From NCBI GenBank assembly GCA_000972765.1, contig CP011265.1:3221001-3285000 (forward strand): a stretch of DNA of 64,000 bases, written 5' to 3'. Shown piece by piece: positions 3,794-27,742 of the stretch (position 1 is the first letter of the stretch; each line of letters opens with the position of its first letter). The notes beneath the pieces were generated by a model, which was not told the DNA's origin, did not search any database, and was given only the letters and a program-made list of their open reading frames with translations. A program made the position numbers and the translations under genes. Source of the stretch: Verrucomicrobia bacterium IMCC26134. GTDB taxonomy: Bacteria; Verrucomicrobiota; Verrucomicrobiia; Opitutales; Opitutaceae.

Positions 3794-3814
3794 CCCGCCC
3801 CTTGCTGGGGCGGG
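3794..3814 (+). terminator. Rho-independent terminator candidate after DUF6573 gene
   Basis: A perfect 8-bp GC stem, CCCGCCCC paired with GGGGCGGG, has a 5-nt loop TTGCT. It starts 18 nt after the stop codon and is followed by AATTTGTATTT, a moderate T-rich tail. Confidence 0.6.
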
Positions 3815-3985
3815 CCAATTTGTATTTGATACATGGATACGCTTTAGGTTGCCAGAAGGTTGCCACCAAACACAGAATTAGCTTCCACTTTAGGAAACTT
3901 TCTGCTTCTTTAAGTTCGTTCTAAACCACTAACCATCAACTAAGTCCGCGTTTATTAGCAACTTAGCTTCCGGCCGTCGCTGCGT

Positions 3986-4010
3986 TTCGAATCCCCGTGG
4001 GGACGCCAAT
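3986..4010 (+). repeat. tRNA-Glu 3'-end repeat, left copy (att-like)
   Basis: This 25-nt sequence runs from the T-loop TTCGAAT through the T-stem 3' strand CCCCG, acceptor strand TGGGGAC, discriminator G and CCA, plus AT. An identical 25 nt occurs at 27487-27511 in the same orientation. Bacterial tRNA-Glu genes end in GGGGACGCCA after this T-loop, so the source is probably tRNA-Glu. No acceptor 5' strand GTCCCCA is present upstream, so neither copy is a whole tRNA. Such 3'-end duplicates are left by tyrosine-recombinase integration. Confidence 0.65.
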
Positions 4011-4021
4011 CAGTGATTGAT

Positions 4022-4047
4022 ACCGAGCAACTTAACTGTTGCTCGGT
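4022..4047 (+). terminator. Hairpin just after the left tRNA-end repeat
   Basis: A perfect 10-bp stem, ACCGAGCAAC paired with GTTGCTCGGT, has a 6-nt loop TTAACT and is followed by TCTATATT. It sits 12 nt beyond the tRNA 3'-end copy, where a tRNA terminator would normally be, so it may be the terminator carried over from the original attachment site. Confidence 0.45.
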
Positions 4048-4119
4048 TCTATATTGGCCAGAATCAGCGAATCATCGATCGCGTTTGAGTCAGCTTACGA
4101 AGGTAAGAGCGCCCATGAA

Positions 4120-4695
4120 CTAAGTCTGATAACTCCTTCCTTTGAAGACTCTGGCATACCGGACATCCGGAATCCTCGCCGCTCCCAGCCCCTTCTGCCA
4201 GTCGTGTCCCACGGGCTCTTCGAACTTATCGGGATAGTCGGCCCATGTGAGCTCAATGCGGATGCGCTCGCCGAACTGCGACGGGATGTCGGACCTCAAA
4301 ACCGCCAAGTTGGTGTTCGTGGTTTTCGATTCTTTGAAACGCTATAAAACAGATGGTGACAGGTCGAGCGAGTGTGGGTGCAAGATGGCAATTTTGCGCC
4401 GGTGATAGACGCATCCGATAGCTCGTCGAATTCACCCGTCACGTAGGTAATGTCGGGCCGTTTGGGTTTGAGGGTGGTGCAGATCACTTCAGCTATTGCG
4501 CATCAAGTCCACCATCGCCGGTCCGTAACCTTCCCCATCTCCTGACAATTTCTGTCGAAGGAGATCCTCACCCTTCCCCGTCTCACGCTTGCCTCCACAG
4601 CAAACGAGCGCTTCGGCGCCATGCCGTGCGAGAGCATCCAGTTCAACGGTGAAAGGCTCTGTATCCGCGACGAGAATACCACCAGCGCCTACCAA
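4120..4695 (-). pseudogene. Possible decayed coding remnant downstream of LacI gene
   Basis: Reading the minus strand, protein-like segments such as GGILVADTEPFTVELDALAR and RIRIELTWADYP are separated by stops and frame changes. They lie directly downstream of, and co-directional with, the LacI gene. I cannot assign a family. It could be the 3' part of a truncated enzyme gene near the island junction, or chance open frames. Confidence 0.28.
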
Positions 4696-4857
4696 GCCTG
4701 CGACGACTTAATCATCGAACTTAACCACGGCGGACTCACCGACTACCGGCGCGAACTCGGTCTCGGCCGCGCCGTTCACCCCGTCAGATACTTCAGCGCG
4801 GGCGGGCGCCACCGCCTGCAGGCCTTTGCCAGCCATCCCGCCGGACTGGAACCTGGA

Positions 4858-5943
4858 TCAGGGTGCACCGGCCGCCGCGGGACTGCGTTCAATCACGCTG
4901 AGACCTGATTGCCAGGTGCCGGCCAACAAGAGTTGCAGCGGATGCCGAGGCACCCCGCGTTCGTTGCGCTGGATCATTCCAACCAGAAAATTCACCGCCG
5001 CCGCACCCACTGCCGCGCCTTCCTGGTTTATTCCGGCCAACAACTTTTCGCCTTCATGCACATTGCGAGAAACCAGGGCGATATCGCGGCCCGGTTTCAA
5101 CCCGAGCATCTCCAGTCCGGCGAGAATCACCGGCACATAATCCTCGATGATCATTCCGTCCGGCCGGAATTTCCGCACCCAGTCGGCAACCTTCGACGAC
5201 GTGAGCGGATTGTCGCGTTCATGGAAAAGCAAAGGCTCGATTCGCGAGCCCTTAGGGCGGCTGTGGTAAGCGTCCCACGCTCCCGATGTCCAGGCCCGCC
5301 GCACCCGGTCGTTGTTCTCTTCGTTGATTATCGCTCCGACTCGCTTGTAGCCGAATCGCTCCAACTGCTCGAATGCCTCTTGCATGGTCGCACGCTGGCC
5401 GTTGCTCACCCGGTGCAGCTCCGGACTAGCGAGGGAATAACCCAGCGCCACCGCCGAAAAATGCTCCCAGCCTAGATCCAGATGTCCGCCCGCCGCCGGC
5501 TGCGGGCCAATGATCAATCCGGCCACGTTTCGAGCCCGCAAAATCCGTGTCGCACTCTGCGGGGTCATATCCGGCGCCCGCATCCAAAACTCGTCCAGTG
5601 CATAGCCGATCGCTTCAGCCTGGCGTCGAGCCCCTTCCAGTCCCTCCTGATAACTGACCGTGGATCTCGGTGCATCAATCGAGACGTGGGAATTGATCCA
5701 CGCGATGGTCGCCTGAAATCGCGCACGGCGGTTGTTTCGCACTTGGGCCATGTGAATCCCGAGCAGTGGATTCAGGTGGTATCCCATTCGCACAGCGGCA
5801 GCGCGAATCCTCGCCGCGACTTCTTGCGAAACGCCAGGTTTCCCCCGCAACGCAACCGACACCGTCGCCTTGCTCACGCGCAAGCGCCGGGCCACGTCGG
5901 CAATGGTAACAGGATCACGCTGGGCCGGGTTTGAGGTTTTCAT
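4858..5943 (-). CDS. LacI-family transcriptional regulator
   Basis: This 361-residue DNA-binding regulator has an N-terminal LacI helix-turn-helix, TIADVARRLRVSKATVSVAL, near residues 13-32, a hinge helix region, and a periplasmic-binding-protein-like sugar-sensing domain to the C terminus (segments GLIIGPQP and FGYKRVGAIINEENNDRVR). I chose the ATG at 5943 (MKTSNPAQ) since the HTH then begins at the usual distance; the longer frame to 6045 adds 34 basic residues unlike the family. It is transcribed divergently from the prepilin-like gene and the polysaccharide lyase genes, so it most likely represses that cluster until a breakdown sugar binds. A paired AACGGGTT repeat lies 15-36 nt upstream of its start. 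Confidence 0.9.
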   Translation of the reverse strand: MKTSNPAQRDPVTIADVARRLRVSKATVSVALRGKPGVSQEVAARIRAAAVRMGYHLNPLLGIHMAQVRNNRRARFQATIAWINSHVSIDAPRSTVSYQEGLEGARRQAEAIGYALDEFWMRAPDMTPQSATRILRARNVAGLIIGPQPAAGGHLDLGWEHFSAVALGYSLASPELHRVSNGQRATMQEAFEQLERFGYKRVGAIINEENNDRVRRAWTSGAWDAYHSRPKGSRIEPLLFHERDNPLTSSKVADWVRKFRPDGMIIEDYVPVILAGLEMLGLKPGRDIALVSRNVHEGEKLLAGINQEGAAVGAAAVNFLVGMIQRNERGVPRHPLQLLLAGTWQSGLSVIERSPAAAGAP

Positions 5944-5957
5944 AAATGGCAAAAGAT

Positions 5958-5979
5958 AACGGGTTTTTCCAAACGGGTT
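5958..5979. promoter_or_regulatory. Direct repeat AACGGGTT x2 in the lacI leader
   Basis: AACGGGTT occurs at 5958-5965 and again at 5972-5979, 14 nt apart, immediately upstream of the LacI start on the minus strand. The related TTAACGGGAT occurs at 6075-6084 before the divergent gene. This may be an autoregulatory binding site; the evidence is only the repetition. Confidence 0.3.
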
Positions 5980-6071
5980 CGGCTGGCGGGGTAAAAATCT
6001 GGGCAAGCAAGCATGACAACCCTTGAGCCCCCTCCCTTTATGCATGCGTTTTAAGCTTCGTAATCAAACCA

Positions 6072-6101
6072 AACTTAACGGGATCGGCTTACAAGCTGTT
6101 G
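6072..6101 (+). promoter_or_regulatory. Conserved leader motif, copy A
   Basis: AACTTAACGGGATCG, then 10 nt, then TGTTG. It shares the core, the exact 10-nt spacing and TGTTG with copies at 20927-20956 and 23911-23941, and in part with the minus-strand copy at 20643-20673. It lies 46 nt before the prepilin-like start at 6148. Confidence 0.5.
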
Positions 6102-6147
6102 TGTTGGCTGCCCAGCGCTTCGATAAGTCAGTCGGCGTCTATACCCC

Positions 6148-6894
6148 ATGAATTACCTCAGCCCCAGCCCTCCCCGTCCAAACTCCGGCTTCACTCTTAT
6201 CGAATTGCTCACGGTAATAGCCATTATCGGCATCCTTGCCGCCATTATCATTCCCACCGTCGGCAAGGTCCGCCAGTCCGCCAAGAGCGCCCAATGTCTT
6301 TCCAACCTTCGCCAGATCGGCATGGCGTTCAACCTGTATCCGACTGATAACAAGGGACGGTTGCCCCGCACAGGCCTGAACCCAAGGCCCAACGACCCCA
6401 GCAAGGTGGATGCCCTTTGGTATTCGGCCATCACGCCCTACATCCAAAACTCGGCCGTAGCAGCGACCAATGTAGTTTATCGGTGCCCTTCGGAAGAGGC
6501 TCAGGTCGATCCCGCACGGATCAATAGCACGGTTCAATACACCGCCTCCCGTGCGCTTGAACGCTCCGGTTCGGCCACGCTGGTCACCGGTCTCGGGGCC
6601 AAACCCGAGGAGATTCCCAATATCTCACAAACCTTCCTCGTGCTCGACTCCTGGGTAAACCAGACCGGAGCAAGCACCGGAATCAGCCCGCACGGCACAC
6701 TGACCTACGCCCAGCTCACGACGTCTATCTCCGGAACCCCGGATGCGAGCACCACGGTCTCCTACCGGCACAACTCCGGCGTTAACGTCGCGTTTGTGGA
6801 CGGGCACACTGCCCGTCTCTCGTTCGACGAGTTCAAGAGCCGCGTCGCCGACCCGATCACGGGCCGAAAACTCTGGGATCCATTTGGTCCCTGA
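6148..6894 (+). CDS. Prepilin-type N-terminal cleavage/methylation protein with H-X9-DG motif
   Basis: This 248-residue secreted pilin-like protein has the type IV prepilin signal [19 protein letters not shown] near residues 14-33, with the conserved Glu at position +5 after the processing Gly, followed by one hydrophobic helix. The C-terminal part has YRHNSGVNVAFVDGH, the H-X9-DG motif common in the very large prepilin-like families of Planctomycetes and Verrucomicrobia. Cleavage would need a prepilin peptidase, which is not in this window. It is first in a plus-strand run that continues into carbohydrate-binding and lyase genes, so it may be a surface pseudopilin used with the polysaccharide locus. 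The direct function is not known. Confidence 0.88.
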   Translation: MNYLSPSPPRPNSGFTLIELLTVIAIIGILAAIIIPTVGKVRQSAKSAQCLSNLRQIGMAFNLYPTDNKGRLPRTGLNPRPNDPSKVDALWYSAITPYIQNSAVAATNVVYRCPSEEAQVDPARINSTVQYTASRALERSGSATLVTGLGAKPEEIPNISQTFLVLDSWVNQTGASTGISPHGTLTYAQLTTSISGTPDASTTVSYRHNSGVNVAFVDGHTARLSFDEFKSRVADPITGRKLWDPFGP

Positions 6895-7009
6895 ACCTCG
6901 CAAAGATTTTCATCAAACGGCATCGCCGGAACTTCCTTCCGATCCACTCCCGTCGGGAGCTCTGAATACTCCGCAGGAAACTTTCGCGCCAAGTCGCGCA
7001 TCTCGTCAC

Positions 7010-7594
7010 ATGAACACCGCTTTCAAATATTTAGTGTTAACCCTTTTTTGCACCCTTTCGCTGTGCGCCGGAAACATTCTCGAAAACCCCGGGTTCGATC
7101 AGGGGGCCTCTCGCTGGGATTTCTTTGTGCCAGACAGCTCCAAGGACCATGGAGATACTTTCACTTTGGCCGACACTGAAGGAGTTGATGGAGGTGCCGC
7201 CGCCAAGCTTACCTCGACCGTTATCAGCCGTTTCGGAATTGCTCAAAAAAACATACCGGTCACCGGTTGGACCCGTTATCGCGTCACATTTTGGTTCAGG
7301 GCTGAACAAGGAGTTGAATACAAAAACGGCCCTCTTGTGAGGCTTAACTTTCGCACCTCGGGCGACAACAGCGACACTGATTTCTACGTCGGACTGGGCG
7401 GTCAGACTGCCACCGATTATAAACTGGTTAAACGCCCCAACTGGCTGCCCTCATCCTGGGAAAAATCAGAGGCCATCGTCGAATCTCCGATCAACGCCAA
7501 GGCCCTCTCGTTGTGTTTCTTCTCCTGGGGCATCAAGGGCGCGGTTTATTTCGATAATCTATCCGTGGAGGCCCTCCCATCAGCGTCGAAATGA
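7010..7594 (+). CDS. Secreted carbohydrate-binding-like protein (CBM4/9-type fold)
   Basis: This 194-residue protein is made of a signal peptide (MNTAFKYLVLTLFCTLSLCA) and one beta-sandwich domain. NILENPGFDQGASRWDFF right after the signal is the typical opening of CBM4/9/16-like modules, and VYFDNLSVE near the end is their typical closing strand. No catalytic domain is attached. The ATG at 7010 is chosen because the signal peptide begins there; the frame open to 6743 overlaps the upstream gene. It lies 31 nt before the lyase gene, whose own N-terminal domain is a paralogue of this one, so the two probably act on the same glycan. Confidence 0.75.
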   Translation: MNTAFKYLVLTLFCTLSLCAGNILENPGFDQGASRWDFFVPDSSKDHGDTFTLADTEGVDGGAAAKLTSTVISRFGIAQKNIPVTGWTRYRVTFWFRAEQGVEYKNGPLVRLNFRTSGDNSDTDFYVGLGGQTATDYKLVKRPNWLPSSWEKSEAIVESPINAKALSLCFFSWGIKGAVYFDNLSVEALPSASK

Positions 7595-7625
7595 TGCTCG
7601 CGCACGCTCCGACTTTGCCCACCCC

Positions 7626-10112
7626 ATGATCGTTCGTCTCCGTTTACTCGCCGCCCTCGTCTCAGCCTTTCTAGTGTCTGGCCATCTCGCTCCGCTACAG
7701 GCTCGCTCACTGGTTACAAATGGCGGTTTCGAAAAGGGAACGGAGGGCTGGAGTTTGTTTACGCCTGCAAATGCTCAAAACGCCGCGCCAGAGTTAAAGA
7801 TCGTCACCAGCGGAGCGCGCTCAGGTAAAAATTTCCTCCGTCTCACCTCTTTATCCTCCGCCCGCTTCGCGGCCGCCCACGCGCCCGTCGCCATCACCGG
7901 GGGAAAACTTTATCGCTTGTCGGTCTGGTTCAAGGCAGCCCCCGACGTCGATTCCTCCGTCGGCCCGGTTGTCCGCGTCATCTTCCGCAAGGCCTCGACG
8001 TCCGAGGTCGAGACTTCCGTCTACCTTGACTTCGAGAGCCGTGTTTCGGTCGGTGTCCCCCCCTCGCTCCCCCGGTCTCCAGCACTCCCCATCGTGTGGA
8101 AAAAAATCGATGCGGTCATCGAGGCTCCCGCCAACGCCGCCACCGTCAGCCCCGCCTTGTTCGCCTGGGGCACCCGCGGCTCGCTCGACTTCGACGACTT
8201 CATCATGGAATCCGTCCCTTCCTCCACCCCCCTTTCCGTCGTCAGCATCGATCCCGAAGCCCGTGAATCACAATCCCTCCCGCCGCTCTTCGCCGAGCGC
8301 GTGCGCGAAGTGGCCGCGATGCTCACCGCCCGACCGACCAATGTCGCCCCTCCGTGGACGGACCGCCCTTACTGGGAACGCGTCGAGCGTATGCCCGCCG
8401 CCGCTGAACTCCTCAAGTCCGCCGCCGAACTGCTCGGCACCGAGCCTCCGGTCCTCACCGAGGAGTTGTTCAACGATTTCTCCATCACCGGCAATCGCCG
8501 TCCCTACGAGGTGCCATACGGCATCCGCACCAGCCGTCTCGTCACTCTAGTGCTCGCCGAGTGCGTCGCCCCCGAACAGGTCAGGCTCGACCAAATCGTC
8601 AAAGAGTTGGACGGCATCATGGACGAGCCCACCTGGTCCGTCCCCGCCCATGTCAAACGTTATCCCGACTGGCACGCAGCCCGCGAATTCATCGATCTCG
8701 CCGCCAGCGCGCGCGGTTGGACGCTTTCAAACATAGACTGGCTCCTCGCCGACCGCCTCCCCGCCGCCACCCGCGCCCGCATTCGCAAGGAGGTCGGCGA
8801 GCGCATTCTCCGTCCTTGGATCACGCGCATCCGCGCGGGCAACTCGGGGCACTTTTGGTGGATGAAGGTCCCCATGAACTGGAGCGCGGTGTGCAACTCC
8901 GGCGTGCTCGGCTCCGCCCTTCTCCTGATTGAAGATCCCAGGGAGCGCGCCGAATACTTGGTCGCTTGGGAGCAGCTCAATCCTTTCTTTTTGGCCGGCT
9001 TCACCCCCGACGGCTACTGCGCCGAGGGCGTCGGTTATTGGGGCTACGGTTTCGGCCACTTCGTCATCGCCAGCGAACTAGTTAAACATGTCACCGGAGG
9101 CCGCGTCGATTCGCTAGCCAACGATCAGGTGCGACGCATCATGGCCTACGGACCCGGCTTTGAGATCGATAACCGGCAATTTCCAGCCTTTAGCGACACC
9201 GCCTTGGGCACCAAGCCGGATCTGCACCTGCTCGATTTTGCTGCGGTGCGTTTCGGCATCGGCAAGGTTCGCGGTCAGCCCACGCTCAAGGCCTCCTCCA
9301 TTCTCGGTGGCAGGATGCACGTGGCCCTTTTCGACCTCGCCATGGACCGGGCTATGGTCGCCGGCGACGTCCAACACGAACTCCCCTCGCGCACCTGGTT
9401 TCCAGATGGTGGTGCGCTGATATGTCGCGGCGCCCAGCCAGGCCGGGGCCTCTCGGTCGCGCTTAAGGGGGGCCACAACAACGAGCCTCACAATCACAAC
9501 GACCTCGGCTCCTTCGTCGTCGTCGCGGACGGTCAGGTCGCCCTGCCCGAGCTCGGCAAGGACGACTACGTCCGCGAGACTTTCGGCCCGCAGCGCTACA
9601 CCAGCGGCGTGATGAATTCCTTCGGCCACTCCGTGCCACGCGTGGCCGGCAAGCTCCAGTCCACTGGCGAGAAAGCCAGAGCCGTGACCGTCCGCACCGA
9701 GTTCACCCCTGAGCGCGACCTCTGGGAAATCGACCTAACCTCCGCCTACGCCGTGCCAGAGCTGACCCGTATCACCCGCACGTTCATTTTTGACCGCGCC
9801 GGCGTTGGGTCCCTTGAAATCATAGACCAGGCCAAGTTTACCTCGCCACAGGCTTTCGGCGTAGCCTTCTCCCTCCTTCCCGCCCAACGCTGGGTCGCGG
9901 ACGGTGACAACGGATACCTCGTCGAGGGCGACGCCGGCCGCGTCCGCGTGGTCGTCACGTCCGCCGTCGACCTAATCCGCGGTGAAGAGCCCATCCGCGG
10001 CATCGTTCCAGACCTGCCGCCTAAGGGACTGCGAGTCGGCTTCGACCTTGCCCGTCCCGCCTCGGCCGTCCGTATCCGCACACTAATTACACCCGCTCCG
10101 GCCGTTCCCTGA
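7626..10112 (+). CDS. Heparinase II/III-family polysaccharide lyase with N-terminal CBM-like domain
   Basis: This 828-residue secreted enzyme has a signal peptide to about residue 27, a CBM4/9-like sandwich (SLVTNGGFEKGTEGW to GSLDFDDFIME, about 28-200), an alpha/alpha toroid (about 240-560) and a C-terminal beta-sandwich. Around residue 615 is GGHNNEPHNHNDLGSFVV, the conserved His/Asn block of the heparinase_II_III fold. Related families (PL12, PL15, PL17, PL21) cut uronic-acid polysaccharides by beta-elimination. The substrate cannot be read from sequence; the neighbouring sulfatases and PL8 enzyme favour a sulfated uronate-containing glycan. The start is preceded by a C-rich run instead of a Shine-Dalgarno sequence. 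Confidence 0.8.
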   Translation: MIVRLRLLAALVSAFLVSGHLAPLQARSLVTNGGFEKGTEGWSLFTPANAQNAAPELKIVTSGARSGKNFLRLTSLSSARFAAAHAPVAITGGKLYRLSVWFKAAPDVDSSVGPVVRVIFRKASTSEVETSVYLDFESRVSVGVPPSLPRSPALPIVWKKIDAVIEAPANAATVSPALFAWGTRGSLDFDDFIMESVPSSTPLSVVSIDPEARESQSLPPLFAERVREVAAMLTARPTNVAPPWTDRPYWERVERMPAAAELLKSAAELLGTEPPVLTEELFNDFSITGNRRPYEVPYGIRTSRLVTLVLAECVAPEQVRLDQIVKELDGIMDEPTWSVPAHVKRYPDWHAAREFIDLAASARGWTLSNIDWLLADRLPAATRARIRKEVGERILRPWITRIRAGNSGHFWWMKVPMNWSAVCNSGVLGSALLLIEDPRERAEYLVAWEQLNPFFLAGFTPDGYCAEGVGYWGYGFGHFVIASELVKHVTGGRVDSLANDQVRRIMAYGPGFEIDNRQFPAFSDTALGTKPDLHLLDFAAVRFGIGKVRGQPTLKASSILGGRMHVALFDLAMDRAMVAGDVQHELPSRTWFPDGGALICRGAQPGRGLSVALKGGHNNEPHNHNDLGSFVVVADGQVALPELGKDDYVRETFGPQRYTSGVMNSFGHSVPRVAGKLQSTGEKARAVTVRTEFTPERDLWEIDLTSAYAVPELTRITRTFIFDRAGVGSLEIIDQAKFTSPQAFGVAFSLLPAQRWVADGDNGYLVEGDAGRVRVVVTSAVDLIRGEEPIRGIVPDLPPKGLRVGFDLARPASAVRIRTLITPAPAVP

Positions 10113-10136
10113 TCCAAACGCAACCTCCCGTTTCCC

Positions 10137-11699
10137 ATGATCTCGACCGCCCTAGGCTCCCTGCCGTGTCCGCAGTCCCGTGAAAAACGCGACCCCCGCG
10201 TGCTTCCGTGGCGCTTCGTCCGCCAGTCGGTCTACCGGCCCGCCTTCGATCCCCGCACGCAGCTGATCCTGGCCGAGATTGTCCCCGCCCGGGTCAACGA
10301 TCTCGACACCATGCATCCGGTGATCGGCCCCGGAACCACTGAATGGCAGCTGGCCGACGGCTGCTTCAAGCTGCGTGGCGGCGACGCCGGTTCCGGCCGC
10401 TGGATGTATGCCTTCAATGCCTTCTCCTGCCACGAGCTCACGCTGGGCAGGGTTCCGGTGGGAGCCTCGGTCTTCTGGAGCGCGCTCGCCGCCGATGACG
10501 AGGTCTCGCTCACGCTGGAGCTGCGTCGCACCGGACTGGATACATGGGCCTTCGAGTTGTCCGGCGTGGCCGGCGACTCGGTCTTGATCCGGCGCAGCGC
10601 CGTCCTCTCCGCCGGCAACGCCGCCGCTCTCGAACGTGTCATTCTTCAGGGCCAGGGATCCGGCATCATGGTTTTTGCCCAGTTCGGCGACACCCTTCCC
10701 CGCCACGTGCTCAGCGCGGATTATCCGGCCGCGCTCGATTTTCGCCGCGTCCGGCTCGCGCAAAACACCCAGGTCGTCGTCGGCGCTGTCGTCCCGCCGC
10801 AAGTTGCCGAGCCGGTCTGCCTGCGCGCCGTGCGCCACTATTTCAGCGCCGGAATCGGCATCGCGGATATCCGCGCCATCACAACGCCGGACGGCCTTCC
10901 TCTGGTGGAGCGCAACCGCGTCTTCGTCACCGCCTCCCTACGCGGACGCGGGTTGCCGCATTCGCTTCAGGGCGTGCTCAGCTTTGACCCCAGCCTCTGC
11001 GACCTGCGGCTGGAGGGCGTGATCGTCTTCGACTGCGACGACGGTTGCTGGCGCAACGAGATCGCGTCCCATCTCATGCACGATCCCGCCACCGGCGATT
11101 GGTTCGGATTGACCACCGGGTTTTCCGGCTTCGGCGACGATCCGCCGACCGCCAAGCTGATCCGCTCCTTCCGCACCCGGCGCGATCCGCGTTTTGGTTT
11201 CACCGTCATCCCCGCCAGCCCGTCCGGCATCGTCGGTGATTACGAAGATCCGGCCCTTTACCGGGACGCCGCCACCGGCAAATGGCGGCTCGCCGTCTGC
11301 ATCGGCCAAAAGCCGCTCTACCACGCCATGCTCTTCGAGTCCGATCACCCGGATCGCGATTTCCAGCATGTAGCCGGCCCCACCGCACCCGACGCCACCG
11401 GCATGCAGATCCTGAACCTTCACGGCCGACCGGTGGTTCTTTACGGCAGCGCCGAGCGCTGCCTCCACGTCGCGTCCGCCGAGGACCTTTCACTGCTCGA
11501 GACCATCCAGATGGATCTTCCGCCATGGCGCGAAGGCTCCGGTTCCCGCGTTTGGCCTGCAGTCATTCCTCTGCCCGCCGGGTCTTTAGTGCCGGCCGTG
11601 ATGCTTACGATGGACAGGCTCAACCATCCCGACATCCCGCACCACACCTGGACTTACGGCTCGGTATACTTTTACCACGCCGTGTCCGTATCGGCCTGA
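10137..11699 (+). CDS. Putative five-bladed beta-propeller glycosidase-like protein, cytoplasmic
   Basis: The product has 520 residues and no signal peptide, which is unusual among its secreted neighbours. The C-terminal half has blades with short sequences typical of the GH43/GH32/GH117/GH130 propellers: MHDPATGDWFGLTTG, GDYEDPALYRDAATGKWRL and a Trp-rich final blade. The N-terminal 250 residues look like a beta-sandwich (LRGGDAGSGRWMYAFNAF). I cannot assign a known family or name the catalytic acids with confidence. Its position between a lyase and a sugar transporter suggests intracellular processing of an imported oligosaccharide. It could also be a non-catalytic propeller. Confidence 0.5.
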   Translation: MISTALGSLPCPQSREKRDPRVLPWRFVRQSVYRPAFDPRTQLILAEIVPARVNDLDTMHPVIGPGTTEWQLADGCFKLRGGDAGSGRWMYAFNAFSCHELTLGRVPVGASVFWSALAADDEVSLTLELRRTGLDTWAFELSGVAGDSVLIRRSAVLSAGNAAALERVILQGQGSGIMVFAQFGDTLPRHVLSADYPAALDFRRVRLAQNTQVVVGAVVPPQVAEPVCLRAVRHYFSAGIGIADIRAITTPDGLPLVERNRVFVTASLRGRGLPHSLQGVLSFDPSLCDLRLEGVIVFDCDDGCWRNEIASHLMHDPATGDWFGLTTGFSGFGDDPPTAKLIRSFRTRRDPRFGFTVIPASPSGIVGDYEDPALYRDAATGKWRLAVCIGQKPLYHAMLFESDHPDRDFQHVAGPTAPDATGMQILNLHGRPVVLYGSAERCLHVASAEDLSLLETIQMDLPPWREGSGSRVWPAVIPLPAGSLVPAVMLTMDRLNHPDIPHHTWTYGSVYFYHAVSVSA

Positions 11700-11731
11700 T
11701 TCGGCCGACTACGGCTTCGTCTGTTTCCGCC

Positions 11732-13147: not shown

Positions 13148-13165
13148 GGCTATAGCCGTCGAAAG

Positions 13166-14572: not shown

Positions 14573-14594
14573 GATTTATCAGGGATGCTCGCCT

Positions 14595-16082: not shown

Positions 16083-16103
16083 CTGAGGACGGGAACCGGG
16101 TGA

Positions 16104-20552: not shown

Positions 20553-20642
20553 GGTCTGAAAACGGAGCGGAAGGACCGGGGTAGGCGAGTTGCAGGGGTG
20601 AGGCGCGGCGCTGGAGAACGTTGGCGAGCGGTGGCCATAACA

Positions 20643-20673
20643 CAAACGCCGGCTAGCCGATTCCGTTAGGTTA
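20643..20673 (-). promoter_or_regulatory. Conserved leader motif, copy B (minus strand)
   Basis: Read on the minus strand: TAACCTAACGGAATCG, then 10 nt (GCTAGCCGGC), then GTTTG. The core is nearly identical to copies C and D and the spacing is the same. It lies about 91 nt before the PL8 start at 20552. Confidence 0.5.
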
Positions 20674-20892
20674 TACCGAATGCGCCTCGATTTTTAGCGG
20701 GAGTGCGAGCAGCTCATTCGGAGTTCGTGAGGGAGCCGCATCCACCAGGAAGCGCACTCGCCGTTCAACAGTGCCGGGGAAAGTGAAACTGCAGCCTTTA
20801 TCAAAATCGTTCACGGGCCGCATGCGCTTCGCCCACACCACCCCTTCGCCGCGAATCTGTTCCGCCCAAAATCGCGACGCGCCCGCAAATCT
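20671..20892 (-). pseudogene. Orphan C-terminal coding remnant (73 codons)
   Basis: The minus strand has an open frame with strongly protein-like content (RFWAEQIRGEGVVWAKR, RPVNDFDKG, SRTPNELLALPLKIEAHSV) ending in TAA at 20671. An in-frame stop lies just upstream at 20893-20895 and there is no good start, so it looks like the 3' end of a gene whose front is lost. Its stop codon touches leader motif B. I cannot name the family. It is co-oriented with the PL8 gene. Confidence 0.4.
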
Positions 20893-20926
20893 TTAACTCT
20901 AAATCAACGAGGGCGAAGCGGGACAT

Positions 20927-20956
20927 TACCTAACGAGATCGGCAACTATCCTGTTG
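20927..20956 (+). promoter_or_regulatory. Conserved leader motif, copy C
   Basis: TTACCTAACGAGATCG, then 10 nt, then TGTTG. It lies 82 nt before the start at 21039 and differs from copy D at two core positions. Confidence 0.5.
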
Positions 20957-21038
20957 CGCACGGGCCGCAACGAGCCGATTGCCAGCACAGCTCAACTACC
21001 CTTCGGCCGTCCGGCTCCAAACTACCCTGCCCAACACC

Positions 21039-23723
21039 ATGAATACCCACATTCCCTCGCGTCGCATTTCGTCCCACCCGTCGCCCGCCGCTTCATCCTC
21101 AGCGCGCCTCCTGCTGGCCCTCGCCGCCCTCGCCCCCGTCGCTCTTACGAGGCTAAACGCTCAATACAATACGTTCAACGGAACCAATCTGCTTAACACC
21201 CCCAATTGGTCCAATGGAAATCGGCCTGACGGGACCACCTCCCTCGGCGCTTACAATGACAACCTTCTAAACACCACAGGCCCGGTCCTCACCATTAACA
21301 CCACCGGACAGCCCAATTACTATACACGGTCCTGGAATGTCACCAACGGCGCCTCCCTGAGCATCACGGCAAATTCGACCAACGTAAGCAGTGGTGTTTT
21401 CCGACTGGGTAGCACAGGCACACCGGGCAATGCCACTGAAGTTCTGGCAACCTTCACCAACGGCGTCTCCGGTGTGGGGAACGACCTGATTTTCCTCTCC
21501 AACAACTCCAGCCTCACTTTTAACAACAACCTGGGCACGGCGCCGATAGGCGTAAGCATCCGGCAGGCCGGTAACCTTGCCGTCAACACCGGCTCTACGC
21601 TCACAATTAACAATGTCATCAGTAGTGCCAGCACCTCTGCTGCTATCAACATCAGCAGGAACGACGCAGGCACCGGCGGCACGGTGATTTTCAACGGAGC
21701 GAATACCTACACCAGCAACACCACTGTCACCAATGGCACGTTGAAACTGGGTAACTCCGCCGCACTTGGAACCACTGCTGGCGGAACCTTCGTGCTGAAT
21801 GGCGGCGCCTTGGATTTGAACGGACAGGTCATCGGCGCCGAAGCCATTCGCCTCAACGGCACCGGCACCGGTGCCGGGGCCTTGATCAACACGAGCGGCA
21901 CCTCCGCAAGTTTGAGTGGCGCGGTCACCTTAACCGGCACGGCTGCCATCGGTGCCGGCAATATCACCTTGTCGGGTGGCATTGGTGAGTCCGTCGCCTC
22001 CGGTCTTACCAAGACCGGCACCGGCACCTTAACACTTTCCGCTAACAGCACCTACTCCGGCACCACCACCGTCGGTGGCGGCGTGATGCGCTTGAATGCC
22101 GTGAATTCCCTGCCCGGTGGCGTCGGCACCACCGGCGGAACCAGCAGTCTTACTTTCGCCAACGGAGGTATCCTTGGGCTCACCGCCGCCAGTGGAGACT
22201 TTACTAGATCCGCTGGCAACGGCACGAACCAGTATCAAGCGCTCGCCGGCAACACCACCGGATTCGCGGCTTATGGCGGCAACCGTTCGGTGAACATTGG
22301 AGGCACCGGAGCCGGGATTTTTTTCAGCGGTAGCGGCGTCAACGGCAATGGCATGATTCTCTCAGCCGCCGACTCGGACAGCACCGTCACACTGGTAAAC
22401 GGAGTCGAATTTACCAACGCTACACGCACCATAACCGTGAACAACGGAAGCGCTGCAGTGGACGCGATCCTCGCGGGAAATCTGACCGGCGTGGGCGCCG
22501 CGGCGCGCCTTAACAAGACCGGAACGGGCACGCTCGCCTTGACCGGAACCAACACTCTCGGCGCCAATAATCCCACTGGCACCGCCATCAGCGCAGGCAC
22601 CCTGCAAATCGGCAATGGCGGCACATCCGGCTCGATCGCGGCCGGCTCCACCAGCGCAAACGGCGGCATCGCCATCTCTTCCGGTGCCACGCTCGCCGTT
22701 AACCGCAGCGATGCGCTTGAGATCTCCAACGCCGTATCCGGCGCCGGTAACTTGAATCAAATCGGCGCGGGCACCACGACGCTGAGCGGAAACAACACCT
22801 ACACCGGCACCACGACGATCAGCGGCGGCACTCTTCAGGTCGGCGCTGGCACCGATGCCGGCTCCATCTCCACCACCGGAGGAATCACCAACAACGGCGC
22901 TCTCGTTTTCAATGTCGGAGCAGGCACCCGCACATTAAGCGCCGTGATCACCGGCTCCGGTTCGCTGACCCAAAACAGTGCCGGCGGCTCCATCACCCTT
23001 TCCGGAAATAACTCTTTCGGCGGCGGCACGACCGTGAGCGCCGGCACCTTGATCGCCACTCACACCAATGCACTCGGCACGGGTGGCGTCACCGTGAGCA
23101 CGGGCGGCACATTGCGGGTCAATTCATCCATCGGCAACGCCATCACGCTGAGCGGAGGCACTCTCTCGGGTAACGCCATACTTGCCGTTGATCTGGGCCT
23201 GAATTCCACCGCCAGCATCATCAGCCCCGGCAACAGCCCCGGCGTCGCCAGCTTTAACACCACCCAAAACTGGACCGCCTACACCTACGATTGGGAGATC
23301 AATAACTTCACCGGCACTACCGTCGGGACCGACTTCGACGGAATCGCCATCACCTCGGGCAGCCTCAATCTGACCGGCGGCACGGCCTATGTCTTGAACG
23401 TGCTGTCTCTCGACGCAGGCAACGCGTCAGGTGCCGTTCCCAACTTCGGTGAAAACTCGATCAGCTGGTCGATCATCTCCACCCAAGCCGGAATCACCGC
23501 GTTTGATGCGGGCAAGTGGACGATTAACTCGACCGCTTTCGCGGCGCTTAATGGCTCAAGCGGCACCTTCTCGCTGGAACTTACCAACGGCAACAAAGAC
23601 CTGTCCCTCACCTACACCCCCATTCCTGAGCCGTCCGCCTTTGCGGCCCTGGCCGGTGCGGGTATGATCGGCTTGGTATTATACCGCCGCCGCCGTCGCC
23701 AGAGCTCATGTGCAACCGCCTGA
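21039..23723 (+). CDS. Autotransporter-type beta-strand-repeat protein with PEP-CTERM anchor
   Basis: This 894-residue exported protein has a signal peptide that probably ends at LTRLNA, and a long parallel beta-helix built from repeats of the kind G(A)GTTTLSGNNTYTGTTTISGGTLQV. The C-terminal end, PIPEPSAFAALAGAGMIGLVLYRRRRR, is a PEP-CTERM signal: PEP motif, one helix, Arg cluster. Exosortase would process it; no exosortase gene is in the window. The start at 21039 is chosen for the signal peptide, the longer frame to 20979 having none. It is a paralogue of the next gene over about 200 residues in the middle. It probably lies at the cell surface as an adhesin, sheath or glycan-holding protein; no enzyme motif is visible. 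Confidence 0.85.
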   Translation: MNTHIPSRRISSHPSPAASSSARLLLALAALAPVALTRLNAQYNTFNGTNLLNTPNWSNGNRPDGTTSLGAYNDNLLNTTGPVLTINTTGQPNYYTRSWNVTNGASLSITANSTNVSSGVFRLGSTGTPGNATEVLATFTNGVSGVGNDLIFLSNNSSLTFNNNLGTAPIGVSIRQAGNLAVNTGSTLTINNVISSASTSAAINISRNDAGTGGTVIFNGANTYTSNTTVTNGTLKLGNSAALGTTAGGTFVLNGGALDLNGQVIGAEAIRLNGTGTGAGALINTSGTSASLSGAVTLTGTAAIGAGNITLSGGIGESVASGLTKTGTGTLTLSANSTYSGTTTVGGGVMRLNAVNSLPGGVGTTGGTSSLTFANGGILGLTAASGDFTRSAGNGTNQYQALAGNTTGFAAYGGNRSVNIGGTGAGIFFSGSGVNGNGMILSAADSDSTVTLVNGVEFTNATRTITVNNGSAAVDAILAGNLTGVGAAARLNKTGTGTLALTGTNTLGANNPTGTAISAGTLQIGNGGTSGSIAAGSTSANGGIAISSGATLAVNRSDALEISNAVSGAGNLNQIGAGTTTLSGNNTYTGTTTISGGTLQVGAGTDAGSISTTGGITNNGALVFNVGAGTRTLSAVITGSGSLTQNSAGGSITLSGNNSFGGGTTVSAGTLIATHTNALGTGGVTVSTGGTLRVNSSIGNAITLSGGTLSGNAILAVDLGLNSTASIISPGNSPGVASFNTTQNWTAYTYDWEINNFTGTTVGTDFDGIAITSGSLNLTGGTAYVLNVLSLDAGNASGAVPNFGENSISWSIISTQAGITAFDAGKWTINSTAFAALNGSSGTFSLELTNGNKDLSLTYTPIPEPSAFAALAGAGMIGLVLYRRRRRQSSCATA

Positions 23724-23886
23724 ATCGTAGAGGAGCACTCATCAGGCTAGTGCCAGTGTCACTTTAAACACCCGCCCGCCCGCGTTTTCCGCAACCCAAC
23801 GCTCAACGTGCGCCAGTCCGGCTTGATTTTGTAATCAACCTGCTTACCTGAAAAACTAATCCATTAATAAAAAACACGTAGCCTAT

Positions 23887-23892
23887 TATAAT
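23887..23892 (+). promoter_or_regulatory. Possible -10 box upstream of second beta-strand-repeat gene
   Basis: TATAAT stands in a locally AT-rich stretch (23850-23905) in otherwise GC-rich DNA, 24 nt before leader motif D. If it is used, the motif lies inside the transcribed leader. No convincing -35 hexamer at 17 nt is seen. Confidence 0.3.
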
Positions 23893-23910
23893 ATAGCATT
23901 TAGCAGGCTT

Positions 23911-23941
23911 TTACCTAACGGAATCGCTTCCCGGCCTGTTG
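23911..23941 (+). promoter_or_regulatory. Conserved leader motif, copy D
   Basis: TTACCTAACGGAATCG, then 10 nt (CTTCCCGGCC), then TGTTG. It lies 78 nt before the start at 24020. Confidence 0.5.
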
Positions 23942-24019
23942 CCCTCTCCGCAAATCGGGCCGAAAGCATTCAACAACCCCTTCCCCGCTGCATCGTCCCC
24001 GCCCTGCCCCATTTTCCCC

Positions 24020-27000
24020 ATGCTACCCCTCAACTCGTCCCGTTCTTCCCGCACTTTTTCGCGTCCCTTCGCGAGCACTTCGTCATTGCTCGGTTTCGTT
24101 GAAAATTACGCCGCATTTGCAGCCGTCCTTGCCCTCGTTGCCTCCGTGGCGGCGGTGCCGCGCGCCAACGCCCAGGACATTATTTGGAGCGGCGCCAATA
24201 ACACGTGGACGGAACCCGGCGCATGGCTGGGTGCCGTCGTCCCGACCTCCTCGAACGTCACCGTGTTTAACAGCAACAACGCCGGCTTTCTTGCGCCAAA
24301 CATGGGCAATGGGACTCGAGCCGTCGGCGGGGTCGTCTTCGAAACAGGCGCCGGCTCCTACACGTTCACCAACGGCGGCACATCAGGACGCCTGAATCTG
24401 TCTGGCAATATCACCAACAACACAACCCTCACCCAAACGTTCGCCGTCGGCCTTCAAAACTCGGCCAACAACACTTACAGCACCGTGGCCGGCGGCTCTT
24501 TGGTGATGACTTCCAGCAACGGAATTTCCCTCAGCAACAACAGCACCAGCCGCACCCTGACCATCGCTGGCGCGGGAAATTTCACCACCACCACTTCGGC
24601 CCTTCTCGCGAATGGTGGAGGCTCCACTGCCGGTGTCGTCAACGTTACCTCCACCGGCACGACTATATTCAACGGCAACGACGACGTTGACGGTCTTCTC
24701 ACCATGAACGGCGTCGGCGGCGTCCTCACCCTCACCGGCAACCGTTCCCGCTCGGCCGGCGGCACCACGCTCACCAATGGCACACTCAACATCAACAACA
24801 AGGACGCCCTCGGCAACGGCACCCTTACGCTTGGCGCCGGCACGTTTAACAACACCAGCGGCGCGCCCATCACCAACCTTGGCAATAACACCATCTCTCT
24901 CGGCAGCACCAATGCCTACACTTTCGGCACAAACAACAGCACCAGCCTGAACAATCTCGATCTCGGCTTCGGCAACGTCACCTTTAGCAGCGATCGCAAT
25001 ATGCCGTTTGCAGGCAATGGCACCACCCTGACCATGGGCCGTCTTACCCCCGTCAGCGTGGCCGACGCCCTCAATGCAAGAAACGCTGCCGGCGGTGCCA
25101 ACAATACCCTCGTGGTCCGCGGCTTGTCCCTGTCGGGCAACGCTACGATCACGACCCCGTTCGAATTGCGCGGAAATGTAAGCGTGACGATCGATGGCGA
25201 GGTCAACAACGGTGCCGGCCCCGGCGGTTTCTGGATCACCAACACCGCCGGCGTCACCCTGAATGCAAACAACACCTACACCGGCAACACCACGATCAGC
25301 GGCCTGCTTCGTCTTAACGCCGCCAACGCCATCCCCGGCGGCATCGCCACCACCGGCGGCACCAGTCCCATCGTTTTCAACACCGGCGGCATCCTCGGGC
25401 TCACCGCAGCGAGTGGTGATTTCACCCGCTCTGTCGGCAATGGCACCGACCAGTATTTGGCCAACACGAACAACTCGACCGGCTTCGCCGCCTACGGAGG
25501 CAACCGTTCGGTCAATATCAGCGGCAACGGCACGGCTATTGTCCTCGGTAGTTTCTCCCAGAGTGGCACCGGCCTGATTCTCGGCGCAGCCAATTCAGAC
25601 AGCACCATAAAAGTAGTTAACAGCATCGAATTCAGCAACGCCTCCCGCACCCTGACGGTGAATGACGGGACCGCCACCGTGGACGCTATCATCTCTGGTG
25701 ACCTCACCGGAATCGGAAGCGCGGCGCGTTTCGTTAAAGCGGGAGCTGGAACCCTCGTTTTGACCGGCACCAACACCGTGGGCGTTACCAATCCCGGCAC
25801 CGGCACGCTCATCAGCGACGGCATCCTCCAGGTCGGCGATGGCGGCACCAGCGGCACGCTCGCCGGTAATGTCGGCAATAGCGCCAGTCTCGTCTTCAAC
25901 CGCAGCGACGCGCTTACCATCTCCGGAAACATCTCCGGCAACGGCACCGTGAAACAAATCGGCGCAGGCACTACGACGCTGGGCGGCAATAACACTTACA
26001 CCGGCAACACCACCGTGTCCTCCGGCACACTGGCTCTCACCGGCAGCCAGGCCTCCGCCCTTGCTCTGGCCGACGGCACCAAACTCCAGCTCGACGTCGC
26101 CTACCCGGTTGCATCGACCGCATCACTCAGCTTCGCCGGGAATGCATCCATCAGCGTCGTCGGCACTCCGACCCCTGCCACCACTTATAATCTCATATCC
26201 GCCCTCTCCATTTCGGGCGCACCCGCCTTAAGTGCGCCCGTCCCCGGCTTCTCGCTCACGAACACCGGCACCGCTCTTCAGCTCGTTCCTGATGTATCTG
26301 CTGACACGACCAAGCCGATCATCGTGCTTAATGGTAACGCCACCGTCATGGTGAACGCGGGCTCGACCTACACTGAACTAGGTGCCGTCGCCACGGATGA
26401 GACCGCCCCGACCGACCGCACCGTCATCATCACTGGCACGGTGAACACCGCTGTCCCCGGAGTCTACGTGCTCAGCTACAATGCGGTTGATGCGGCCGGC
26501 AATGCCGCGATCGCCGTAACCCGCACCGTGACCGTGGCAGATGTCACCGCCCCGGCCATTACTCTCAACGGTTCGGCCAGCGTCTCAGTGAATTGGGGTG
26601 CTACCTATGCCGAAGCAGGTGCGATCGCCGCGGATGAGTTCGCCCCTGCCAGCCCTGCCGTCATCATCACGGGTTCGGTGAACACCGCCAAGCCCGGCAC
26701 CTACACCCTCAGCTACAATGCCCATGATACCGCCGGCAACAATGCCGTGCAGGTTCAGCGCACGGTCACGGTTGCCATCGCCAATCCCACGACTGTCGGT
26801 GCGGATGGCTTAAGCCCGCTTATGAAGTATGCTCTCGGTGCCAACAGCCCGAGCGACACCGTGCAGGCTCCGGTGGTTAGTGCCACCTCCACAACCCTCG
26901 TGCTCACCGCCGTGGTCCGCACCGACGACCCCAAGCTCAGTGTGGTCGGCACAACGAAGACCGATCTCACCAGCGGCACTTGGACGACTACCGGCGTGAG

Positions 27001-27127
27001 TGGAAGTCCGGTAGGAAGTGGCACCATGGGTGACCAAACCGGTGTGATCACGGGCCAGCGCAGAGTTTTTACCGTCAATACCGGGTCCAAAACCTTCCTG
27101 CGTCTAGAGGCCACTCTCACCCCGTAA
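24020..27127 (+). CDS. Beta-strand-repeat surface protein with two DUF5011-like domains
   Basis: This 1035-residue exported protein has a long N-terminal signal region (to about RANAQ, residue 50), then an autotransporter-type beta-helix (about 55-750). Two tandem Ig-like domains of DUF5011/HYR type follow, starting near TTKPIIVLNGNATV and TAPAITLNGSASV and each ending in a TVTV strand. The C-terminal module begins DGLSPLMKYALGAN and ends TFLRLEATLTP, as in three other proteins of the window, instead of a PEP-CTERM. The start at 24020 is chosen because it is followed by the hydrophobic export segment. It shares the segment GGILGLTAASGDFTRS and FAAYGGNRSVNI with its upstream neighbour, so the pair arose by duplication. 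No catalytic residues are apparent; a role in surface binding is likely. Confidence 0.82.
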   Translation: MLPLNSSRSSRTFSRPFASTSSLLGFVENYAAFAAVLALVASVAAVPRANAQDIIWSGANNTWTEPGAWLGAVVPTSSNVTVFNSNNAGFLAPNMGNGTRAVGGVVFETGAGSYTFTNGGTSGRLNLSGNITNNTTLTQTFAVGLQNSANNTYSTVAGGSLVMTSSNGISLSNNSTSRTLTIAGAGNFTTTTSALLANGGGSTAGVVNVTSTGTTIFNGNDDVDGLLTMNGVGGVLTLTGNRSRSAGGTTLTNGTLNINNKDALGNGTLTLGAGTFNNTSGAPITNLGNNTISLGSTNAYTFGTNNSTSLNNLDLGFGNVTFSSDRNMPFAGNGTTLTMGRLTPVSVADALNARNAAGGANNTLVVRGLSLSGNATITTPFELRGNVSVTIDGEVNNGAGPGGFWITNTAGVTLNANNTYTGNTTISGLLRLNAANAIPGGIATTGGTSPIVFNTGGILGLTAASGDFTRSVGNGTDQYLANTNNSTGFAAYGGNRSVNISGNGTAIVLGSFSQSGTGLILGAANSDSTIKVVNSIEFSNASRTLTVNDGTATVDAIISGDLTGIGSAARFVKAGAGTLVLTGTNTVGVTNPGTGTLISDGILQVGDGGTSGTLAGNVGNSASLVFNRSDALTISGNISGNGTVKQIGAGTTTLGGNNTYTGNTTVSSGTLALTGSQASALALADGTKLQLDVAYPVASTASLSFAGNASISVVGTPTPATTYNLISALSISGAPALSAPVPGFSLTNTGTALQLVPDVSADTTKPIIVLNGNATVMVNAGSTYTELGAVATDETAPTDRTVIITGTVNTAVPGVYVLSYNAVDAAGNAAIAVTRTVTVADVTAPAITLNGSASVSVNWGATYAEAGAIAADEFAPASPAVIITGSVNTAKPGTYTLSYNAHDTAGNNAVQVQRTVTVAIANPTTVGADGLSPLMKYALGANSPSDTVQAPVVSATSTTLVLTAVVRTDDPKLSVVGTTKTDLTSGTWTTTGVSGSPVGSGTMGDQTGVITGQRRVFTVNTGSKTFLRLEATLTP

Positions 27128-27742
27128 CGTAAACATCAGCCGACATCCTGCGTCAGCCGGCCAAGTGCATAACGATGCCATGAAGGGCGGATCATCGGTG
27201 GTAGGGTGAGGTGGCCGGTGCTCACCCGCAACGCAGGCGGAGCACTGCCCGCTGCCGGTTGCCGGATCAGTGTGCCGATTGTGATGTAATCGCATGCGGA
27301 TTTGACATCGGCCAACAACCACTGGCGCCGCAAATCACCTAACTATATTGTCCTTATATTGGCCAAATTGAGTTCGTTAACGCCGCCCCTTGCATCTCTC
27401 TGCATCAAGAATGTATACATTAACTAGATCATGGATATGATATTTCAGAATAAATAGAGTGAAATCTCGTGTGCCTCAATTTGGGGTTCGAATCCCCGTG
27501 GGGACGCCAATTTAGCATGCTACTTAAGCAGCCAATTCAGAGGGAGATGGAGCATTTCAGCTTCTCTCCCTCTGCTGGTTTAGCGCAAATCCTTTTGTTG
27601 GTTCACTCACCTTCGACACCGGCTAAAAACCCAACCGAAAAGGGTTCCTGCCAGCGACTGCGGATCGAGCTCTCCTCCAAGAAACACCCGATCTCACCTT
27701 CTGCTATCGCATGCTCAGGATGTTGAAGCTAATTCCGTTTTT
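27128..27742. other. Intergenic stretch with att-like repeat and hairpin
   Basis: I see no gene. It contains a 7-bp hairpin GGGTGAG/CTCACCC at 27204-27227, which could end transcription of the upstream gene although it has no T-run. A TCACCTAAC core resembling the leader motif lies at 27335-27343, then an AT-rich segment (27360-27470) and the right tRNA-end repeat (27487-27511). After the repeat, 230 nt carry no recognisable feature. Confidence 0.55.
27487..27511 (+). repeat. tRNA-Glu 3'-end repeat, right copy (att-like)
   Basis: The 25 nt are identical to 3986-4010. Here the preceding bases TGGGG also complete the T-stem (pairing with CCCCG), so this copy preserves 29 or more nt of tRNA 3' end. 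No anticodon arm or acceptor 5' strand is found within 100 nt upstream, so it is not a functional tRNA. Confidence 0.65.

Follow-up and report, generated by a model that had tools for sequence, protein, structure and literature searches.

Positions 4011–27486 of a 64,000-nt stretch of the Verrucomicrobia bacterium IMCC26134 genome (hereafter, the window; contig CP011265.1, genome positions 3221001–3285000 of a 4.0-Mb single contig) are in all likelihood an old integrative element (element 2), which carries a polysaccharide locus and stands in tandem behind another, probably younger, element (element 1) at an intact tRNA-Glu(TTC) gene. Element 2 fits the description of a cis-mobilizable element (CIME; integrase lost, att [attachment] sites kept), as both att sites are present and no integration genes were detected; in a passage of PMC5704250, CIMEs are defined by loss of the integration and transfer genes and retention of attL and attR. 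Comparisons were made within a set of 252 genomes of the family, in which this genome is designated G000.

Repeat Array at tRNA-Glu

The 25-nt sequence TTCGAATCCCCGTGGGGACGCCAAT was found by sequence match at 3986–4010 (att1, the junction between elements 1 and 2) and at 27487–27511 (att2, the right boundary of element 2), both on the + strand, with no further copy in the window. These identical direct repeats of a tRNA-Glu 3′ end had been reported in the original prediction, along with the lack of a complete tRNA at either of them, and both statements hold; a tRNA search of the window detected none. A 23-mer of the repeat, allowing ≤3 mismatches, gave these two matches only in the window (none in 100 shuffles) and matched exactly three places in the whole genome, all on the + strand: 3187857, 3224986 (i.e., window 3986), and 3248487 (i.e., window 27487); the reversed 23-mer had no match in the whole genome. 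The many unrelated copies that had been named in advance as a sign against integration were therefore not seen. The core at 3187857 is part of an intact tRNA-Glu gene (anticodon TTC) located 33.1 kb left of the window, and a reading frame for a 408-aa integrase begins 72 bp after this tRNA gene; both had been expected on this side. The array reads tRNA-Glu – element 1 (37.1 kb) – att1 – element 2 (23.5 kb) – att2, with 37129 bases from the tRNA core to att1 and 23501 bases from att1 to att2. Counted on the sequences, att2 shares 32 nt (GGGG...ATTTA) with the intact tRNA gene, as compared to 25 nt for att1. Direct repeats of a tRNA 3′ end, an intact tRNA gene at one end of the array, and an adjoining integrase, the marks of a tRNA-targeted genomic island, are all present.

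What lies right of att2 may be not the native region downstream of the tRNA gene but a third, decayed element, as positions 27483–27553 (core included) match an element's left end in G003 with 84.5% similarity across 71 bp; no integrase was found in 27512–64000 with a hidden Markov model (HMM) of the family integrases or with phmmer.

Ends of Element 2 and the Missing Integrase

The motif ATATTGGCC has two copies in 134 kb (both strands), one at each end of element 2, at 4051 and 27356. The left copy (4051–4059, +) is located 42 bp after the att1 core, behind a hairpin, CCGAGCAACTTAACTGTTGCTCGG (4023–4046, +; pattern search), within a left end (4011–4130, +) that resembles two sequences elsewhere, one lying right of tRNA-Glu in G001 and the other right of the core in G246, a genome of another genus. 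The right copy is preceded, 11 bp upstream and 142 bp before the att2 core, by a one-mismatch copy at 27345, giving a direct pair ATATTGTCC / ATATTGGCC (27345–27364, +; pair search). Among 200000 random segment pairs, 50 had a left motif repeated as an 11-bp-spaced right pair; this arrangement is seen in both elements, the arm-like motif of element 1 being GGTTGCCA and its right-end direct pair, also 11 bp apart, being AGGTTGCCA (3846–3865, +; pair search); the other family integrase of G000 (at 2804702) is associated with GATTTGCC.

Comparable ends were found across the family. Most of 20 left ends (by eye) present, in the interval between tRNA and integrase, an inverted pair (e.g., AGGTTGCC...GGCAACCT or GATTTGCC...GGCAAATC), and all eight right ends, that of element 2 included, present two direct 8-mers that are spaced 11 bp apart and differ by ≤1 mismatch, a pattern found in 403 of 20000 random 70-bp stretches of the region; the same test with 9-mers was passed by six of the eight. 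The first match of the right pair lies 139–144 bp before the core in seven of the eight ends and 122 bp before it in G246, which is of the element 2 type. From these letters, the end pairs are predicted to be integrase arm sites.

Hairpin and arm motif occur together in 3 of the 252 genomes (G000, G001, and G246), always beside a tRNA-Glu core, and the right pair with ≤1 mismatch in two; with ≤2 mismatches, the right-pair pattern has a single place in this genome (the search at two mismatches gave nine places in eight other genomes, which are not part of these counts, and its control gave one match, in G243). In G246, one place combines the right pair ATATTGGCCGAATATTGGCC, a core with two mismatches, and a left end with hairpin and ATATTGGCC; the alignment of this left end with that of element 2 scores 102, as compared to ≤38 in 1000 shuffles, and comprises 81 identical positions, 17 mismatches, and 8 gaps. 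The sequences starting at 4011 and ending before 27487 are thus most simply read as the two ends of one element type. In G009, an integrase gene next to tRNA-Glu is preceded by ATATTGGCC as an inverted pair. By eye, a contig of G246 (G246:C53, L140) carries, near 3346, sequence resembling the right-end flank of element 2 joined at ATATTGGCC to sequence resembling its left-end flank, as if recombined at the arm motif.

None of the searches for an integrase in element 2 was positive: the HMM built from 24 integrases of the family (E ≤1) and phmmer with seven other integrases of this genome found no match in six frames, and Pfam none on the main frames; Pfam also identified no transfer genes among the 10 main reading frames. 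The integrase of element 1 was considered as a mover of element 2 and dropped, as the arm-like motifs differ (GGTTGCCA vs. ATATTGGCC) and the right-pair pattern occurs at one place only. Because no integrase was detected in element 2 and this pattern has no other place in the genome, a circular form of element 2, as proposed originally, may no longer arise today. A similar case was found in G009, where a LacI gene and a DUF1559-like gene come after integrase remnants next to an att copy.

We consider it distinctly unlikely that the element 2 type represents a non-autonomous lineage, moved only by an integrase acting in trans and ferrying metabolic blocks, rather than single decayed relics. In its favour, no integrase was found beside an element 2-type left end in three species (23.5 kb here, 9 kb in G001, and only 0.9 kb readable in G246). 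What speaks against such a lineage is that the segment of G246 whose right end matches carries no ATATTGGCC at its own left end. If it did exist, element 2-type ends (a left end with hairpin and a single ATATTGGCC, a right end with the direct pair) would enter tRNA sites shared with defence-carrying satellites.

A Near-Empty Site and Other Arrays

Comparison with genomes lacking 4011–27486, as proposed originally, led to G001 as the nearest case: the locus is absent there, yet part of an element remains. Behind its tRNA-Glu, G001 has an element 2-like left end (86% similarity over 79 bp, of which 23 are core; 85% over 52 bp without the core), about 1.4 kb, and then a homologue (72.6% of 616 aa) of the gene at window 29272–31245, which sits right of att2 here. 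As this is the only right-side gene shared, the G001 site is suggestive and does not represent a clean junction.

At least two cores (≤1 mismatch) on one contig were found in 6 of 76 genomes, namely this one, G034 (three cores), G017, G021, G023, and G067; matches reading GGTTCGATTCCCCGTGGGGGCGCCA (two mismatches), which probably represent another tRNA, were excluded. In the other five arrays, only the first core in reading direction is an intact tRNA-Glu. The tRNA-proximal segment of G034, which belongs to another genus, contains a type I methylase and an integrase; no integrase was matched in its 56-kb distal segment, which contains a sulfatase, a TonB-dependent receptor, and a sodium symporter. 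Integrase matches were found inside array segments of G017, G021, and G067; the G023 segment was read at its ends only. In G246, two cores enclose a segment of 16.1 kb in which no integrase was matched; ATATTGGCC is absent near the left end of this segment, and some of its frames appeared cytochrome-like by eye.

The Polysaccharide Locus

The locus in element 2 starts with a LacI-family regulator (4858–6045, −; Pfam LacI), followed by a DUF1559/N-methylation-motif protein (6148–6894, +; Pfam), a heparinase II/III-like polysaccharide lyase (7626–10112, +; PF07940), and a conserved 520-aa protein with no Pfam match (10137–11699, +), for which G004 and G010 have frames of 518 and 520 aa at the corresponding place. 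Further genes are an MFS transporter reading frame (11282–13147, +; Pfam MFS), two sulfatases (13166–14572 and 14595–16082, both −; PF00884), a protein of polysaccharide lyase family 8 that also has CBM96 and LamG domains (16104–20645, −; PF08124, PF02278, and PF02884), and two surface proteins, one with PATR repeats and a weak PEP-CTERM match (20979–23723, +; Pfam) and one with PATR and Ig-like domains (23939–27127, +; domain search). Because a family 8 lyase, a heparinase-like lyase, and sulfatases occur together, the substrate is probably a sulfated, uronic-acid-containing, glycosaminoglycan-like polymer, to judge from these families.

Nearly full-length relatives of the heparinase-like protein (75–89%) were found in 5 of the 14 other members of the genus (G004, G006, G010, G001, and G007); tblastn matches of the locus with <40% identity were not counted. 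G004 is collinear with 4821–27241 in pieces (4821–11683, 89.5%; 13163–21066, 85.2%; shorter pieces to 27241), and G010 is collinear from 4888 to 20536, with gaps. Neither the att core nor ATATTGGCC was found in the stretches fetched from the contigs of the five relatives. In G004, the locus is located between LpxH and PilT-like genes, and in G010 between nth and tRNA-Val(CAC); these gene names are our assignments by eye. In this genome, nth (88% identical) is followed after 91 bp by tRNA-Val, with nothing in between, representing the empty G010 site, and no polysaccharide locus is found next to LpxH (90% identical). G004 was dropped as an empty-site comparison, as only LpxH itself is shared around that site, so that the empty-site argument uses the nth/tRNA-Val comparison with G010 only.

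The differing sites in G004 and G010, and the empty G010 site here, indicate that the locus roams within the genus, with three different chromosomal sites in one genus, and that it lies in element 2 in this genome. Synteny with relatives lacking the repeats, which had been named in advance as a result that would speak against an island, was indeed found for 4.8–27.2 kb; since the locus in these relatives sits at other sites, one of them empty here, the synteny does not refute the island, but it does identify the locus as a roaming cluster of the genus, as opposed to island-specific cargo.

It is therefore worth considering, as a less probable but serious possibility, that the locus was not brought by element 2, but entered element 2 after the integration and decay of that element, or took the place of its middle part, by the route used in the relatives. 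Consistent with this, the conserved block (about 4821–27241) stops inside both ends of element 2, the G004 and G010 contigs as read contain neither the att core nor ATATTGGCC, the 810 bp left of the block contain fragments resembling other places (e.g., genome positions 1621124–1621419, 68%, and G002, 74%), as would be expected in decayed DNA, and the base composition of element 2 is native-like (G+C 0.608, as compared to 0.634 and 0.625 in the flanks). Later entry requires two events rather than one, however, and the G034 array segment without an integrase match likewise holds a sulfatase and a TonB-dependent receptor. That the locus is simply an ordinary chromosomal cluster surrounded by coincidental relics of repeats seems hardly credible; while the heparinase-like protein of the five relatives stands beside no att core in the stretches read, there are exactly three repeats genome-wide, both element 2 repeats adjoin ends of one type, and the locus sites differ between G004 and G010, with the G010 site empty here. 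The locus may have arrived as cargo of element 2, as proposed below, or may have entered it later.

LacI genes right of tRNA-Glu in G010, G011, G007, and G014 were rejected as parts of the same locus (about 30% identity); the true G010 locus is located on a different contig from the tRNA-Glu-adjacent LacI gene of that genome. The stretch containing the MFS frame (11707–13163) is extra here, being missing from the otherwise collinear G004 and G010 alignments, and represents either a gain in this genome or a loss in G004/G010. In addition, 18.9 kb containing the locus are 99.9% identical between G001:C46 (L125) and G010:C3 (L119, L120), although these are species-level distinct genomes; this may reflect a recent transfer or a mis-binned contig, and because of possible mis-binning G001 was left out as an independent locus site. 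Across tRNA-Val from the locus, G010:C3 (L120, L121) carries an SspD-like gene (47%) and defence-like frames, and a direct pair 11 bp apart was seen by eye soon after tRNA-Val in both G010 and this genome.

Element 1 and Its Relatives

Element 1 occupies genome positions 3187880–3224985, with window positions 1–3985 as its right end. Its integrase matched phrog_1 (1.8e-23) and, below the family cut-off, a Pfam central domain (0.00018); the Pfam catalytic model (PF00589) missed it in a genome-wide search. Two frames without a Pfam or PHROG match are followed, in order, by genes for a Sak4-like annealing protein, a helicase, a primase, a DUF3102 protein, a terminase, a Mu-type portal, a Mu-like protease, and a major head protein, giving the element head and packaging genes of its own. 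Behind the head gene are SspB, C, D, F, G, H, and SspA, a DEDDh exonuclease and, as last gene, DUF6573. Ssp is a single-strand phosphorothioate defence, and its SspBCD core, SspFGH, and SspA were all matched by PADLOC. The backbone has a G+C content of 0.665, as compared to 0.528 for the Ssp cargo. The part within the window comprises the 3′ part of sspH (1–1192, +; gene start at genome 3216739; PADLOC SspH), an sspA/dndA-type cysteine desulfurase (1189–2358, +; PADLOC SspA 7e-108 and DndA 1e-107, Pfam Aminotran_5), the DEDDh exonuclease (2334–2939, +; Pfam RNase_T, PADLOC DEDDh), all three cargo, and the DUF6573 gene (3132–3776, +; PF20213), which is the last gene in element 1-type elements. 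What had been called a separate defence island on the left is not separate; these defence genes are cargo of element 1, in the same tRNA-Glu array.

Members of the element 1 integrase family are present in 139 of the 252 genomes, and an intact tRNA stands close in front of the integrase at 15 of 20 hand-picked loci (Glu 8, Ser 5, Leu 1, and His 1). We read four elements, namely element 1, a further element 1-type copy that sits at tRNA-Ser(CGA) in the same genome (the second copy; about 2768.7–2806.1 kb; L188, L193), one in G241 at tRNA-Glu, and one in G027 at tRNA-Ser. The backbone of the second copy is 77–99% identical from Sak4 to the major head protein, while its integrase differs (57%). 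In all four elements, cargo lies directly past the major head gene; family searches covered part of the frames in these cargo stretches. While element 1 carries the Ssp system, the second copy contains a helicase, DUF1156 methylase, and DUF499 set (Hma-like) and an oligonucleotide cyclase, the G027 element contains metal efflux genes (an RND efflux pump and a P-type ATPase), and the G241 element contains type I restriction and an AbiU-like gene. The DUF6573 end gene closes three of the four elements and was not found in the G241 element; homologues are last before the att core in G013 (69%), the second copy here (95–97%), and G027 (92%). A second integrase directly after the first element in G027 (L185, L186, L197) represents another tandem, at tRNA-Ser; some frames after it resembled conjugation genes by eye.

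From its genes, we read element 1 as a tail-less, head-encoding, satellite-type element. None of its 10 proteins scanned with PHROGs matched a family of the kind 'tail', and the large frames past the head gene, the only ones scanned there, are defence genes. A decayed tailed prophage is an unlikely alternative, to which the phage-like portal, protease, major head protein, and terminase would correspond, as would the tail families in two of five tested contigs with a 41–60% similar head protein (a tape measure in L245 and a tail fibre in L222; none in the other three). Among the eight proteins tested from such contigs, those of L221 and L217 and two of three from L245 had no match, and the best match of an L239 protein was a head decoration family. 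A shared backbone (59–99% identical proteins) with differing cargo right after the head gene recurs, however, in four elements from three genomes, which argues that the tail-less state is kept and does not reflect random decay; tail-lessness of these four was assessed from reading frames and family searches of part of the cargo. We read 13 of 40 head-protein loci, six of them with a head protein of 92–99%; among these six, downstream proteins were family-searched for L209 (one with PHROGs, two with Pfam), and the others were assessed by frames and tblastn. Opitutaceae-like bacteria may thus harbour a family of tail-less, head-encoding elements that swap integrase and tRNA target and have one slot for defence or metal-efflux cargo.

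Relatives of the element 1 head protein at 92–99% come from records titled Opitutus, Opitutaceae, and uncultured Verrucomicrobia and, less plausibly, from Akkermansia metagenome-assembled genomes. Two viral-contig records from one genome, IMG/VR 2630968540_000001 and _000002 (L226, L225), have head proteins 99% and 100% identical to that of element 1, and are possibly the two copies of the element 1 type in this genome.

The whole 60.6 kb from tRNA-Glu to att2 could in principle be one element with att1 as an internal relic, as all three repeats share one direction and, according to a passage of PMC5704250, tandems of a CIME and an integrative and conjugative element (ICE) have been observed to transfer as a whole. 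We regard this as very improbable, since element 1 ends at att1 with the end gene and a right pair of its own, an arrangement shared with G013, G027, and the second G000 copy, and att1 is followed by an end with different arm letters; G013 also suggests that the element 1 type can occupy tRNA-Glu alone, but its two ends are on different contigs.

Proposed History of the Array

In the tandem history that we favour, each element would have been inserted by a tyrosine integrase recombining the 3′ end of the tRNA gene, and every insertion, to judge from the anatomy of the array, would rebuild the tRNA with its own copy of the 3′ end and push the earlier element outwards. Element 2 would have lost its integrase and kept its att repeats and arm-like motifs of another specificity (i.e., the CIME condition), and would now carry the polysaccharide locus; element 1, the later arrival, would have retained its integrase, with Ssp defence as cargo. 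We infer the arm function of the motifs, the order of insertion, and the arrival of the locus as cargo. The tandem integration with glycan cargo proposed in the original prediction is borne out as regards the array, the integrase gene, and the element ends, but element 2 has no detected integrase and the locus is not specific to the island.

Several observations weigh against this history. The order of insertion is argued by analogy, and the arm motifs are predicted from sequence. The eight right ends are not a blind sample, and the core in the second G000 copy and in G027 was placed by matches of only 12 and 8 nt. The alignment of the right end with G246 exceeds shuffles to a moderate extent only (72 identities, 20 mismatches, and 20 gaps; score 57, as compared to ≤46 in 1000 shuffles), the right pair there lies 122 bp instead of about 140 bp before the core, and ATATTGGCC was not found at the other (left) end of the G246 segment left of the junction. 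The genome-wide PF00589 search lists no integrase in element 2, but it also missed that of element 1. The G001 site without the locus keeps part of an element and shares one right-side gene only, and no examined genome differs from this one only by 4011–27486. Finally, the locus moves in relatives that lack these repeats, so that something else can move it.

Relation to Known Systems

Capsid-forming phage-inducible chromosomal islands (cfPICIs) reportedly take only tails from their helpers. According to a passage of PMC11389934, cfPICIs are a satellite family, and satellites carry defence systems. Element 1 shares with cfPICIs head and packaging genes of its own, an integrase, and defence cargo, but differs in its Opitutaceae-like host, its Mu-type portal family, and its size (37 kb with Ssp). 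Its Ssp genes (SspB, C, D, F, G, H, and SspA) resemble known Ssp systems, the difference being their cargo slot, which is flanked by the major head gene and the end gene.

An accretion route to tandem elements is described in a passage of PMC5704250, with satellite prophages named among the tandem partners; the arrangement found here is thus a new example of an already known, tandem CIME-type arrangement and not a new kind. Element 2 resembles CIMEs formed by accretion (e.g., the ICESt1-related elements of Streptococcus) in lacking a detected integrase, keeping its att ends, and standing in tandem at the end of a tRNA gene. In contrast to those CIMEs, its partner is a head-encoding, satellite-like element and not an ICE or an integrative and mobilizable element, its cargo is a polysaccharide locus, its arm-like motifs differ from those of element 1, and the element 1 integrase is not an obvious mover. 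The genomic islands at ssrA in Dehalococcoides, which carry vinyl chloride reductase (PMC3146451), are similar in bringing metabolic cargo to an RNA gene and differ in site and cargo. Literature searches, judged by title, found nothing relevant on such islands or satellites in Opitutaceae or Verrucomicrobia, or on Ssp in satellites or polysaccharide loci in integrative elements. The array provides a worked case of a polysaccharide-degradation locus in an integrase-less island with both ends defined and a neighbouring genus for comparison, showing one way in which polysaccharide gene blocks end up in islands, and its end motifs make the travel of glycan loci and defence genes in these bacteria testable.

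Near the right edge of the window, two inverted transposase copies (99.2% identical, 1397 bp, rve core with a weak IS481 match) are located at window 62351–63649 and genome 3286030–3287328; they flank a 397-aa reading frame from window 63721 on.

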